Shown: in pieces, positions 1-4,967 of the stretch
Layout of the letters: every line of letters begins with the position of its first letter
Position numbering within the stretch: the first letter of the stretch is position 1
From: Gammaproteobacteria bacterium
GTDB lineage: Bacteria; Gemmatimonadota; Gemmatimonadetes; Longimicrobiales; Gaopeijiaceae
NCBI GenBank assembly: GCA_009843625.1
Contig: VYDD01000146.1
Location: forward strand, 1 to 33,329
Reading direction: 5' to 3'
Length of the DNA stretch: 33,329 nucleotides
Notes under the pieces: generated by a model
What the model saw: the letters and a program-made list of their open reading frames with translations, nothing else
What the model was told of the DNA's origin: nothing
The model's database searches: none
Translations under genes and position numbers: made by a program

Positions 1-861
1 ACGGTCGGAGGAGAGCTCTCCGAACGCCGGGACATCCCACTCTGGCAGGGCAATCGAATCCGTCTGCATAGTCGACAGGTCAACCAGCCAGAGCAACCGC
101 CGTCCGCCGTCTGAAATGGCGACGCAGTCCTTATGCCGCGCCCAATAGGACCGTGCCTCCCTCCTGCCGAGCAGCGCAAGAGGTCCATCGCCGGCGCTCG
201 CACGCCTAGGAACGGATCGTTCCCAGAGGATCTCGCGGTAGTTTGGGTTGGAGCGTTGCACCCGCCACAACTGAAGACGCCGACTGCCTGCATTCAGCGA
301 GTCCAACCCGAACATCATCTCGTCGCCGCCTCCCGGACTGACGAATCTCACACCTTCGCCCAAGCTGACCGTCGGCAGTGTGGCAGACCACCGAAACTCC
401 CCTTCGGGATCGAAAGCAGCTAGGTCGAAGCGGTCGTAGACAACCAAGTTACGGCCGTCGAAAGCCACATGGCCTTCGAAGATGTTGTCCACCCAAGTCA
501 CGGGGAAGGGCATGTTGAATTCGCCGGGACCTTCTCCCACTCGTCCGAACACATGCCTCTCCTTCAACTCTCCCGACAGGTGGAGGACGCCCGGTCGAAG
601 CTGGTCGTAGAGGAACACGCTATCGCCTGCGGCGGCGAGCCCGCCGTAGGACGCGATCCACCCTCCCGAACCGGACCCGTCGCTCAGGCCATATGTGTGG
701 GTCTCCTCGTACGACTCGGCCAGCCAACGCGTCTCATCTGCCGACACTCCGCACGACCGCGTCTCGACCTGACCCGACGCTGGCGTGCTCGAGCACGCCA
801 GCGTCACGATCACCAGCGCTCCTGATACTGACCGACGATGAACCCGGGCGAGGCTGATCAC
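1..861 (-). CDS. 6-bladed beta-propeller-type lipoprotein (partial, C-terminus off the left edge)
   Basis: I translated this frame by hand from a GTG at 861; 287 codons are open to the first base of the window with no stop. The N-terminus has a basic start, a hydrophobic stretch and a lipobox (ALVIVTLAC followed by SSTPAS), so it should be a lipid-anchored envelope protein. Downstream repeats such as DSVFLYDQLRPGVLHL, GRVGEGPGEFNMPFPV and LVVYDRFDLAAFDPEGE are typical of 6-bladed beta-propeller (BF3164/TolB-like) proteins, which carry the 'G.GEGPGEF..P' type motif. A GAGG lies 6 bases before the GTG. The gene starts 32 bases after the stop of the small six-cysteine protein and probably shares its promoter. 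Function is unknown; the propeller could bind a peptide or glycan ligand. Confident of the reading frame, moderately confident of the family. Confidence 0.8.
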   Translation of the reverse strand, partial: MISLARVHRRSVSGALVIVTLACSSTPASGQVETRSCGVSADETRWLAESYEETHTYGLSDGSGSGGWIASYGGLAAAGDSVFLYDQLRPGVLHLSGELKERHVFGRVGEGPGEFNMPFPVTWVDNIFEGHVAFDGRNLVVYDRFDLAAFDPEGEFRWSATLPTVSLGEGVRFVSPGGGDEMMFGLDSLNAGSRRLQLWRVQRSNPNYREILWERSVPRRASAGDGPLALLGRREARSYWARHKDCVAISDGGRRLLWLVDLSTMQTDSIALPEWDVPAFGELSSDR

Positions 862-893
862 TACGGGCCTCGAACGTGACCCGAAACGCCGCA

Positions 894-1136
894 CTAGAAT
901 TCGTCGCACTCAAATCCGCCCGTCGCCCCGTTCGAGCAAACGAAAACGCAGTACCCCGAGTCGAACACTTCGCAGTAGGCGCACTCATGGGTGCCTTCGT
1001 CGTCCCAACTCTCCGTTGTCCCGCACCCACCGCTGTTCGGGATTGCCTGGCCCGGCGTGGCCGCGAGCATAGCGCTACCGGTGGCAACAGCCGTGATGAG
1101 AAAAGCACCTCTGAGTAGCCGACGGATGACGAACAT
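894..1136 (-). CDS. Small exported six-cysteine protein (80 aa)
   Basis: The start chosen is the ATG at 1136, preceded at 9 bases by GGAGG; a longer in-frame ORF runs upstream but has no ribosome site. Residues 1-31 form a signal peptide (FVIRRLLRG, then a hydrophobic core AFLITAVATGSAMLAA, likely cleaved after TPGQA). The mature part of about 49 residues has six cysteines at 38, 52, 55, 63, 67 and 77, and is acidic with aromatic residues (ESWDDEG, CAYCEVF, GYCVFVC). Six cysteines in so short a mature chain suggest disulfides or metal binding in the periplasm. It is the first gene of a unit with the propeller lipoprotein 32 bases downstream. The layout resembles the Bacteroidales pairing of NVEALA-type Cys-rich peptides with BF3164/6-bladed-propeller lipoproteins, but the NVEALA motif itself is absent. 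No function is established. Confidence 0.75.
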   Translation of the reverse strand: MFVIRRLLRGAFLITAVATGSAMLAATPGQAIPNSGGCGTTESWDDEGTHECAYCEVFDSGYCVFVCSNGATGGFECDEF

Positions 1137-1596
1137 GATGGGATACCTCCGATCCCTGATGATGAAAGATGAAGATGGGAGAGGAAGTATACGAACGGTC
1201 CGCTCCGGCGACAAGCGGCTCGTCGTCGAGCCAATGTCTGCTCCCGTTGTGCGCCATGTGTCCCCCAACCAACTCTTTCGTAGAGCGCCCAGAAACCGGC
1301 CTTGAGCCCGCTGTGGAGCGGCGGCAGCTCCGCGGCGACCTATCGCTGCGTGACCATGAAGCTCCGTGTCCCGTTTGGGTGGGTCCGCCGCTACGGTCCG
1401 GCTGGTTCGGGTCGCCGATGCGCCCGGACAACATGGTTTCCCGAGACGACTTCAGGGAGACCGTCCAAGACCTCCCGCGAAGACAAGCCGCAGGCGCAAG
1501 GATTCCCGCCATTCATGTCTGGTAATCCCGCTTTCGCGGCTTGGTCCAGCAAGGTCCAATACAACGCCAGAAAACGCAGATCGTGCGGCCCTGTAA
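1137..1596. other. Stretch without a recognisable gene, between the six-cysteine gene and the truncated amidohydrolase
   Basis: Apart from the minus-strand promoter at 1186-1214, I recognise nothing here. Several short open frames exist on both strands, but none has a convincing start, ribosome site or family motif. The region contains a copy of TCTGGTAATCC at 1518-1528 that is repeated at 1630-1640, where homology of the downstream amidohydrolase begins. It may hold decayed coding or mobile-element sequence. Confidence 0.5.
1186..1214 (-). promoter_or_regulatory. Sigma70-like promoter of the six-cysteine protein unit
   Basis: On the minus strand a -35 box TTGTCG (1214-1209) is separated by exactly 17 bases from a -10 box TATACT (1191-1186). 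The predicted transcript start near 1179 gives a leader of about 43 bases before the ATG at 1136, containing a GGAGG Shine-Dalgarno at 1150-1146. It is the best-looking housekeeping promoter in the window. Confidence 0.5.
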
Positions 1597-1640
1597 GCAG
1601 TTAGCCGATTTCCTGCCGGTATTCAGGCCTCTGGTAATCC
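1518..1640. repeat. Short direct repeat TCTGGTAATCC at the amidohydrolase junction
   Basis: The 11-mer TCTGGTAATCC occurs at 1518-1528 and again at 1630-1640. Both copies are preceded by ATTCA (1511-1515 and 1621-1625), so the similarity extends over 18-20 bases with a 2-base length difference. The second copy sits exactly where the amidohydrolase reading frame starts to look like its family (GNPPDGRHIWYARRTG). This marks a probable recombination or insertion/deletion junction. Confidence 0.55.
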
Positions 1641-1779
1641 GCCCGACGGGCGCCACATCTGGTACGCGCGCCGCACCGGCGACTGGCAGTACAACGCGCA
1701 GTTCCCGCAGTACCAGCTCGAGGCCTACGACCGCGAGGACGGCGAGCGCTATCCGAAGTCGTCGCGCTACGGCTCGGCG

Positions 1780-4383
1780 GTGCGCCCCACGCCTTCTCCC
1801 GACGGCCGCTGGGTGGTGTTCGGAACCCGCCACGACGACCACACCGGGCTTCTGATCCGCGATCTGGAGACGAGCGAGGAGCGCTGGCTGGCGTATCCGG
1901 TGCAGCACGACGACCAGGAATCGCGGGCGACGCTGGACGTGCTTCCGGGCATGTCCTTCACGCCTGATTCGCGCTATCTGGTGGTTTCCTACGGCGGCAG
2001 GATGTGGAAGCTGCCGGTCGAGGGAGGGGCCGCCGAGGAGATCCCGTTCCGGGTGCAGATGGAGCTGACGCTCGGGCCGCGGGTCGATTTCGACTACCCG
2101 ATCGAGGACACGCCCACCTTCACGGTGCGGCAGATTCGCGACGCGGCGCCGTCGCCCGACGGCGAGAGGCTCGCGTTCACCGCGCTCGACCGGCTGTGGG
2201 TCTCCGATGCCGACGGCTCCAACGCGAGACGAATCACCGAGGCCGACCGATCCGAGCACTTCCCGGTCTGGTCGCCGGACGGGGAGTGGGTCGCCTACTC
2301 GACCTGGGACGGAGAAGTCGGCCACATGTACAAGTCCCGGGCCGATGGCGGGGGGAGTCCGGAGCGGCTGACCAGCGAGCCCGCGGCCTACTTCTCTCCC
2401 GCGTGGGGGCCGGGCAACCGCCTGGTTGCGCTGAGGGGCTTCATCCGCGCCTACGAGAGCCAGGGCGAGGCGGGAACTCCCGGAAACGAGATCGTTCAGG
2501 TGTCCACCGAACCCGACGACGATGACGGAGGCCCCGTGACCGTGATCGCGCCCAGCGACGGGCGCCGCGACCTGCACTTCGTCGAAGGCGAGGACCGAGT
2601 CTTCATGTTCCGTCCGCCCGATCTGCTGGTGTCGATCCGCTGGGACGGGAGCGACGAGAAGGAGCACGTGCGCGTGCGGGGCGCCACCCTCACCGGCGCG
2701 ACCCAGGGACTCGCGCCCACGACCGTGCAGATGGCGCCGCGCGGGGACCAGGCGCTTGTGGAGCTGCAGCGCCAGATCTACAGCGTGACCGTCCCGCGCA
2801 TCGGCATCACGCCCACCATCAACGTCTCAAACCCGGACAACGCGGCCTTTCCGGCCCGGCAGCTGACCGACATTGGCGGCGAGTTCCCCGCTTGGAGCGG
2901 CGACGGGCGCTCGGTGCACTGGTCGCTGGGCAACGCGCACTTCGTCTACGACCTGGATGCCGCCGAGGCCTTCGAGGACAGCGTGGCGGCTGCGGAGGAA
3001 GAGGAAGAAGCGGAGGAGGAGGCCGAGGAACAGGAAGCCGAGGAGGAAGCGGAGGCGGAGGACGAAGATGACGAGTACCGCGCTGCGGAGGTCCGGGTGC
3101 TCATAGACGCGCCGCGCGACATCCCCGAAGGTCTGGCCGTGCTCCGTGGCGGGCGCGCGATCACCATGAACGGCGGCGAAGTCATCGAAAACGCCGACAT
3201 CGTGGTTCGCAACAACCGGATCGAAGCAGTGGGCCGGAGCGGATCGGTGATGGTCCCGGACGGTGCAACCATGATCGACGTCAGGGGGCGCACCATCGTG
3301 CCCGGCTACGTCGACACCCATTCTCACCTGCGCGCGCGCGACGAGCTGCACCGGACCGACGTGTGGCCCTACCTGGCCAACCTGGCCTACGGAGTGACCA
3401 CCACCCGCGATCCCCAGACCGGCAACACGGAGGTCCTCTCATACGCGGACATGGTGCGCACCGGCTCGATACTCGGCCCGCGCGTCTACTCGACCGGGCC
3501 GGGCGTCTTCTGGCAGGACCAGATCGACACCGCCGAAGAGGCGCACGATGTCCTGAAGCGCTACTCCGACTATTTCGACACCAAGACCATCAAGATGTAC
3601 GTGGCCGCGGCCCGCAAGGGACGCCAGCACATCATCATGGCGGCGCGCGAGCTGGGGCTCATGCCGACCACCGAGGGCTCGCTCAACATCCGTCAGAACC
3701 TCACCGAGACCCTCGACGGATACCCGGGGCTGGAGCATTCAATTCCGATCTTTCCGGTATATGACGACTACGTGCGGCTGTTCGCCGAGACCGGCCGCGT
3801 GTACACGCCGACGCTGCTGGTGACGTACGGCGGCCCCTGGGCGGAGAACTACTTCTACAGCCGCGAGAACCCGCACGACGACCTGAAGCTGCGCCGCTTC
3901 ACCCCCCACGACGAGATCGACAGCCGCACCCTGCGCCGCCCGCAGTGGTTCCACAGCGACCAGCACACCTTCTCGCGCCACGGCGAGTTCGTGAAGGACC
4001 TGGTCGCGGGCGGGGGCAAGGCCGGCGTCGGCAGCCATGGCCAGTTGCAGGGACTCGGGTACCACTGGGAGCTGTGGGCCATGGCGGCCGCGGACATGGA
4101 CGAGCACGACGCGCTGCGCATGGCCACCATCTTCGGGGCCGAGGCGATCGGGCTCGACCAGGACCTGGGCACCATCGAGGCGGGCAAGCTGGCGGATCTG
4201 GTGATCCTCGAGGCCAATCCGCTCGACGATCTGCGCAACACCAACGCCATCGACCGGGTGATGCTGAACGGGCGCCTCTACGACGCCGACACGCTGGACG
4301 AACTCTATCCGCGCGAGCGGCCGCTGGCGCCGCTCTGGTGGTGGGACGACGAGCCGAACGGGGTGCCGGGGGTGGGGCGCTAG
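1780..4383 (+). CDS. TolB-propeller / amidohydrolase fusion, 5'-truncated
   Basis: Residues 1-390 are a TolB/WD40-like propeller with repeated SPDG motifs (PSPDGRWVVFG, WSPDGEWVAYS). A very acidic Glu-rich linker follows at about 400-435, then an imidazolonepropionase-like amidohydrolase domain from about 450. The metal-binding pair His514/His516 is in DTHSH, the conserved Lys lies in KTIKMYV (about 602-605), and GSHGQ (about 751-755) replaces the usual Asp motif, as is common in these fusions. It should be an exported peptidase- or imidase-type hydrolase. Coding similarity continues upstream in frame to about 1640 (PPDGRHIWYARRTGDWQYN), but a TAA lies at 1594 and no ATG is present; the GTG at 1780 is only the first formal start. 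Full-length relatives have a signal peptide plus roughly 200 more propeller residues. This copy therefore probably cannot be secreted and may be a pseudogene. Its stop overlaps the stop of the convergent YdeI-like gene. Confidence 0.85.
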   Translation: MRPTPSPDGRWVVFGTRHDDHTGLLIRDLETSEERWLAYPVQHDDQESRATLDVLPGMSFTPDSRYLVVSYGGRMWKLPVEGGAAEEIPFRVQMELTLGPRVDFDYPIEDTPTFTVRQIRDAAPSPDGERLAFTALDRLWVSDADGSNARRITEADRSEHFPVWSPDGEWVAYSTWDGEVGHMYKSRADGGGSPERLTSEPAAYFSPAWGPGNRLVALRGFIRAYESQGEAGTPGNEIVQVSTEPDDDDGGPVTVIAPSDGRRDLHFVEGEDRVFMFRPPDLLVSIRWDGSDEKEHVRVRGATLTGATQGLAPTTVQMAPRGDQALVELQRQIYSVTVPRIGITPTINVSNPDNAAFPARQLTDIGGEFPAWSGDGRSVHWSLGNAHFVYDLDAAEAFEDSVAAAEEEEEAEEEAEEQEAEEEAEAEDEDDEYRAAEVRVLIDAPRDIPEGLAVLRGGRAITMNGGEVIENADIVVRNNRIEAVGRSGSVMVPDGATMIDVRGRTIVPGYVDTHSHLRARDELHRTDVWPYLANLAYGVTTTRDPQTGNTEVLSYADMVRTGSILGPRVYSTGPGVFWQDQIDTAEEAHDVLKRYSDYFDTKTIKMYVAAARKGRQHIIMAARELGLMPTTEGSLNIRQNLTETLDGYPGLEHSIPIFPVYDDYVRLFAETGRVYTPTLLVTYGGPWAENYFYSRENPHDDLKLRRFTPHDEIDSRTLRRPQWFHSDQHTFSRHGEFVKDLVAGGGKAGVGSHGQLQGLGYHWELWAMAAADMDEHDALRMATIFGAEAIGLDQDLGTIEAGKLADLVILEANPLDDLRNTNAIDRVMLNGRLYDADTLDELYPRERPLAPLWWWDDEPNGVPGVGR

Positions 4384-4967
4384 CTCTTCTCCACCCAGCG
4401 CATGAGCGGGATCACCTTCCCGCTGGCGCTGGACTCGATGAGGATGCCGAGACGCCGCAGCCGCGTCTCCTCCTTCTTCGCGCTCACCACCCAGCGCGCC
4501 ACCTGTTTGCGGTACGACGGGCGCGCGTTGCGGAAGTAGTCCCAGGCTGCGGGATCGGCCCTGATCCGGCTCTCGTACTTCGGAGGCAGCTTCGTGACGC
4601 TCGGTTCGTACGCGGCGCGATCCCTGCTGTTGTCGCGTCTCTCGTATGCGGCCAGCCCCGCTTCGGTCACGACTCCCTGCGCGAGCAACTGCTTCATGCG
4701 GCCCAGGTTGCGGGGGCTCCAGTGGCTGCGGCGTCGCCGCGGGGTGAAGCGGACCTTGTAGGCCTTGTCGTCGACGGTGCGCTTCAGGCCATCGATCCAG
4801 CCGAAGCAGAGGGCGGCATCAACGGATTCACCGACGGTGACGCTGGGGAGCTTCGTGGCCTTCTTGTAGTACCCGACCCACATCACGTCGACATTGTCGT
4901 GGTTTTCCTCGAACCAGGCGCGCAAGGCTTCAGGGGTGGGAAAGAAGTGAGGAGTGGTGTCTTCCAA
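4380..4967 (-). CDS. YdeI/OmdA (bacteriocin-protection-like) family protein
   Basis: This 195-residue protein has the YdeI/OmpD-associated family layout. It opens with FFPTPEALRAWFEENHDN, then VMWVGYYKKATKLPSVT, then the hallmark DAALCFGWIDGLKRTVDD, and an RRSHWSP motif. The C-terminal region (ARWVVSAKKEETRLRRLGILIE) is the typical helical OmdA tail. It is probably cytoplasmic. Members are loosely linked to stress or antimicrobial-peptide resistance, but the biochemical role is not established. It starts at a TTG (4967-4965) preceded by AGGA about 8 bases upstream. Its last bases overlap the stop of the convergent amidohydrolase. The family call is firm; the function is not. Confidence 0.85.
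   Translation of the reverse strand: MEDTTPHFFPTPEALRAWFEENHDNVDVMWVGYYKKATKLPSVTVGESVDAALCFGWIDGLKRTVDDKAYKVRFTPRRRRSHWSPRNLGRMKQLLAQGVVTEAGLAAYERRDNSRDRAAYEPSVTKLPPKYESRIRADPAAWDYFRNARPSYRKQVARWVVSAKKEETRLRRLGILIESSASGKVIPLMRWVEKS

Follow-up and report, generated by a model that had tools for sequence, protein, structure and literature searches.

In Bacteroidales, NVEALA peptides (PF14055) sit beside six-bladed propeller lipoproteins, and such peptide-propeller pairs have been annotated without a function. Two other described systems have parts like those of the locus studied here: sublancin operons carry the Bdb thiol-disulfide oxidoreductases BdbA and BdbB, and in methylamine dehydrogenase MauA occurs with the propeller MauB and the thioredoxin-like MauD. 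A literature search on NVEALA, on Gemmatimonadota propellers, and on DsbA with propellers returned no paper. In NHLRC2, a Trx-like domain with a CCINC motif lies beside the cleft of an NHL propeller, and the bacterial homologues are without conserved neighbors (PMC6107167).

The window, i.e., the whole stretch of 33,329 nucleotides that was analyzed, is a complete contig of its genome (G000:C360), and the propeller gene at its left end is therefore cut at base 1. The features of the locus are as follows.

1..861, minus strand: gene for a six-bladed NHL-type propeller, read from GTG 861 or alternatively from GTG 909, incomplete at the contig end
894..1136, minus strand: gene for an exported six-Cys mini-protein of 80 amino acids, framework C-13-C-2-C-7-C-3-C-9-C
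897..1043, minus strand: mature mini-protein, about 49 amino acids, net charge about -10, 6 Cys, 1 Trp
1044..1136, minus strand: region coding for the Sec signal peptide predicted from sequence, about residues 1-31, a leader more conserved than the mature part
1146..1150, minus strand: Shine-Dalgarno GGAGG, 9 nt before the ATG
1186..1214, minus strand: sigma-70-like promoter TTGTCG-17-TATACT, called from its consensus match only
1500..1650, minus strand: repeat copy (dispersed type, about 145 bp), located where the segment common to G099 has its outer edge

The earlier note had described an 80-codon reading frame with a signal peptide and six cysteines, preceded by a good promoter with a 17-base spacer and by GGAGG, and both descriptions fit the gene at 1136-894 (minus strand). 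Its product, MFVIRRLLRGAFLITAVATGSAMLAATPGQAIPNSGGCGTTESWDDEGTHECAYCEVFDSGYCVFVCSNGATGGFECDEF, is acidic. RRLLR at the N terminus is followed by a hydrophobic core and then by a cleavage region of AxA type, in which the site was placed by eye; the six cysteines come after it. The promoter-like site agrees with the consensus at 9/12 positions, with 0.1 such sites expected in shuffled sequences. Homologues of the mini-protein were found in G108 (51% identity) and G009 (44%), so that the frame is conserved, and dN was lower than dS, which indicates purifying selection on the frame, although dS was high in several peptide pairs and is a rough estimate. Neither the mini-protein nor the window propeller had a Pfam or NCBIfam match above cut-off, and single-sequence structure prediction gave a weak three-strand model (pLDDT 56) for the mini-protein and a poor model (pLDDT 37) for the propeller.

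With the start at GTG 861, the propeller gene lies on the same strand as the mini-protein gene and 32 bases after it, as previously noted, while a start at GTG 909 would make the two genes overlap. The full-length protein, 401 amino acids from the start equivalent to 909, is encoded at L034:2956-4161. A profile of these propellers (A4) matched solved NHL chains (Thin, 7e-36; TRIM71, 4e-34) over parts of the sequence and weakly matched SOQ1, which places them at the fold level among the six-bladed NHL-type propellers. Pfam-A propeller models, including the Bacteroidetes-type 6-bladed propeller families, assigned no family to three of the propellers up to E 0.1. The word lipoprotein in the earlier note was not upheld for the window propeller, nor was the surface location that went with it: the lipobox, TLAC, is noncanonical, its Cys is missing in close orthologues (e.g., AALVGASTPALGQ and MVPAAAGMPAHGQ), and a signal-peptidase-I (SPI)-type site (TPASG↓Q, PAMA↓Q) follows it. 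Lipoboxes are present in other propellers of such pairs (L088 and L040).

The window pair is only part of a larger cassette. Locus L034, a copy with 99% identity on VXQO01000130.1 of the MAG Gemmatimonadetes bacterium SB0664_bin_10, contains the whole propeller and continues into a DsbA-like gene (4158-4826) whose product has a CPYC motif and an N-terminal membrane anchor. By domain match (PF13462, 3.8e-15; PF01323, 1.2e-13), CxxC (CPYC), and cis-Pro (TPTFV), this protein, which belongs to the relative and not to the window, is a member of the DsbA/Thioredoxin_4 group. The order peptide-propeller-DsbA recurred in G009, G108, G027, G332, and G031. The cassette DsbA proteins scored above cut-off with Pfam Thioredoxin_4/DSBA and had CPYC, CPFC, or CRHC motifs, and both CxxC and cis-Pro motifs were present in most of them. 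Some cassettes carried tandem peptides (three in G332, two in G108, and three in G100). In G105, G111, G075, and contig C89 of the window's own genome, the third partner was another small CxxC thioredoxin-like protein, with no Pfam match where checked.

Several observations count against the model set out below. The window contig stops short of a DsbA gene, and a search of the own-genome assembly, which is 87% complete, for a DsbA of the cassette type (E<=1e-25) returned none. Two further pairs in that genome (C50 and C213) had no thioredoxin-like gene in the stretch read. Additionally, the DsbA gene lies on the opposite strand in G109 and G106, whose cassette also has a short CxxC lipoprotein and two pairs of peptide and propeller. 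As a side observation, a run of G interrupts the propeller frame of the G034 cassette (L036, 6196-7466) and the DsbA gene there is truncated, which suggests decay of the cassette or an error in sequencing.

Pairing of peptide and propeller was more frequent than expected by chance. Small open reading frames for exported Cys-rich products, called with one fixed detector, were recorded at 13/42 propeller genes and at 0/207 other genes of at least 200 amino acids from the same loci (Fisher, 1.5e-11). The earlier note had named the lack of a small Cys-rich neighbor beside homologous lipoproteins of relatives as a refutation, and the outcome was mixed: many propellers have one, but nine orthologous propellers of one neighboring genus lack both the peptide and a thioredoxin-like gene. 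Among the propellers examined, a DsbA gene or another CxxC thioredoxin-like gene was nearby for 13/17 propellers with a peptide versus 1/21 without one (Fisher, 5e-6, or 2e-5 after removal of near-identical loci; the loci are not all independent). Within the own genome, a peptide stood beside only 4 of the 30 best propeller-like genes, and the pairing thus marks a subset of them.

The genome-wide counts rest on profile searches. When 395 Gemmatimonadota genomes were searched with a peptide profile, all 11 significant hits lay beside a propeller, with DsbA present wherever the contig allowed, and one new locus was obtained (G027, with a peptide, DsbA, and a divergent propeller). The strongest result for the cassette came from a profile of DsbA only, run over the same number of genomes, from which the 40 best nonseed loci were fetched: 36 had an adjacent or fused propeller, fused in 10 cases to give proteins of about 580 to 620 amino acids. 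Two of the fusions (L253 and L255) were called from length and likeness, since their C-terminal part fell under the propeller-profile threshold. An exported Cys-rich peptide was found at 35 of the 40 loci; the script gave 36, of which L235 was discarded by eye, and detector hits at L237 and L241 were discarded as out-of-frame reading frames inside fused genes. Even much more distant DsbA loci were not free of the association, with a propeller in 5 and a peptide in 7 of 20. A three-part cassette of peptide, propeller, and DsbA recurs across the phylum Gemmatimonadota.

The peptides of these cassettes differ in framework. The framework of the window peptide recurs with varied spacing, also beside the fusions L217, L220, L226, L251, L253, and L255, with C-x2-C ... 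C-x3/4-C as the part common to window and fusion loci. The same partners also accompany other frameworks: a twin CX3C type, seen chiefly in genus g61, and C-10-C-8-C-6-C-3-C-9-C, seen chiefly in g25. Cysteine number is not fully constant among homologous peptides, as one has 5 and two have 7, which counts against the model set out below. In those peptide pairs that were far enough apart for a useful comparison, conservation was higher in the leader than in the mature part. Net charge was negative (-1 to -15) in each of the 21 mature parts examined. Peptide and propeller distances agreed (Mantel r, 0.93), an agreement that reflects shared inheritance and not binding.

The cassettes also appear to be mobile. 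The window and G099, which represent different genera, share 1650 bp at 99% identity up to the outer edge of the repeat, of which the own genome has 16 copies. Next to it, at 1640-4383, lies a gene for an amidohydrolase with PD40 propeller repeats whose 5' end is missing; the gene is intact across this site in five g1 relatives, while in the window copy the break falls at the repeat, in the codons for P-D-G-R. One tyrosine integrase is common to both G099 cassettes and G111 and is present in fragmentary form at G105; G109, G106, and own contig C50 share an integrase-side block with them. From these sequences, we infer that an integrative element family carries the cassettes as cargo. No propeller relatives were found in viral contigs and plasmids. 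Misbinning of the whole contig was rejected, as identity over the rest of it is 88-94% with genus g1 but about 69% with g25; a local assembly chimera at the repeat retains a slight probability. Several copies of the repeat lie at junctions of truncated genes with cargo, such as GmrSD-type (DUF262) genes or peptide-propeller clusters, and the repeat is sometimes inserted at GGGCGG within the codons for P-D-G-R.

We consider it probable that the Sec-exported mini-protein is the dedicated substrate of the DsbA-like enzyme, which would make its disulfides, and that the propeller binds or presents it. After export by Sec, the mini-protein would meet the membrane-anchored, periplasm-facing DsbA-like enzyme in the periplasm and be oxidized by it to form disulfides, while the propeller would bind the mini-protein and hold or present it next to the DsbA active site. 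From the observed genes, their conservation, co-occurrence, order, fusions, and motifs, we infer these steps of export, oxidation, binding, and presentation. The main arguments for oxidation while the mini-protein is held by the propeller are that DsbA tracks the peptide rather than the propeller alone and that the two proteins are sometimes fused. Thus, a substrate of a dedicated disulfide-forming module is better supported than the ligand-receptor or peptide-export pair proposed in the earlier note. The two conserved Cys of the propeller could also be DsbA clients; orphan propellers keep both without DsbA. As a first guess, and an unlikely one, the finished mini-protein might be a secreted effector or mediator in bacterial competition, given the mobility of the cassettes and the greater variation of mature parts compared with leaders. 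More tentatively than the cassette model itself, we suggest, as a possibility somewhat short of probable, a phylum-wide, mobile, and dedicated disulfide-maturation system of a kind undescribed in the literature searched, in which DsbA and propeller, as separate proteins or as one fused chain, form a module that oxidizes and handles families of hypervariable secreted mini-proteins used between bacteria.

Each of the described systems resembles the cassette in part. Like NVEALA loci, the present ones have small exported Cys-containing peptides, sometimes in tandem, beside six-bladed propellers. However, PF14055 had no match in the own genome, including the window peptide, whereas the positive control Bacteroides ihuae matched, so that the NVEALA motif is missing as previously noted; the tested peptides had no NCBIfam match above cut-off, the propellers match no Pfam propeller family, and the cassette has a dedicated DsbA, sometimes fused. 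NHLRC2 and SOQ1 likewise couple a thioredoxin fold to a six-bladed NHL-type propeller, and NHLRC2 is a structural precedent, since its thioredoxin fold sits at the propeller cleft. In contrast, the present enzyme resembles DsbA, is anchored in the membrane by its N terminus, and is encoded with a Cys-rich exported peptide, and the fusions carry CPYC, CPFC, CPSC, CIAC, CQVC, CPVC, or CAVC instead of the CC(I/V)NC motif. Sublancin-type operons also encode a secreted disulfide-bonded peptide with its own thiol-disulfide oxidoreductase, but the export route differs, and a propeller takes the place of the glycosyltransferase and peptide ABC transporter, neither of which was recognized here. A constant DsbA-type partner gives the peptide-propeller pairs a testable biochemical hypothesis, in which the propeller presents secreted mini-proteins as substrates for oxidative folding. 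If true, Gemmatimonadota would have a client-specific disulfide system beside the general Dsb machinery and would be a source of new natural disulfide-rich scaffolds.

The same parts can be read in other ways. The mini-protein could be a secreted antibacterial toxin or bacteriocin, oxidized by its own DsbA, with the propeller as an immunity or carrier protein. The mobility of this cargo fits such a role, as do integrase-element repeat copies that also border GmrSD-type genes, tandem and divergent peptide copies with conserved leaders (in G332, G108, and G100), propellers without a peptide that recall orphan immunity genes, and the Bdb enzymes of sublancin operons. However, the mature peptides are net negative, unlike most cationic bacteriocins, most cassettes are without a dedicated exporter, and no toxin family matched, and we regard this explanation as unlikely. 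For a redox or metal carrier, whose CxxC would exchange with DsbA and which would not be a folded end product, the argument is a CxxC that many of the peptides have near their middle (CAYC, CGYC, CYYC, CELC, and CVSC); the twin CX3C and C-10-C-8-C-6-C-3-C types lack it yet have the same DsbA-propeller partners, which leaves such a role quite improbable.

A signal sensed by the propeller would be consistent with the conserved pairing and the matched peptide and propeller families. Against this ligand-receptor reading, which we find very doubtful, no regulator or signal-transduction gene was recognized as a constant neighbor, a place taken by DsbA, and neither lipoprotein nor surface status is clear for the window propeller. 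Finally, the operon has the same three kinds of part as that of methylamine dehydrogenase, and the mini-protein could be the small disulfide-rich subunit of a propeller enzyme. Tryptophylquinone needs two Trp in that subunit, while the window peptide has one and the mature part of G108 copy 1 has none; the missing Trp already disfavors this highly improbable assignment, and the propeller profile matches six-bladed NHL chains.

Minor observations were made on the propellers and peptides of these loci. A perfect 30-bp palindrome lies at 776-805 of the window, among the signal-peptide codons of the propeller gene, and a subthreshold Rfam match to SymR on it was taken as chance. The own genome, of 4 Mb, has about 52 six-bladed propeller-like genes, most of which, where examined, are without a peptide neighbor. 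In G075, near the peptide-propeller-thioredoxin cluster, L095 (2413-2829, reverse complement) encodes a possible lanthipeptide-like precursor, MKLNVDELHVESF..., with several Cys. On own contig C213 (L181), two paralogous four-Cys exported peptides are encoded at a distance of about 4 kb, and the interval holds a propeller gene and ABC transporter genes.
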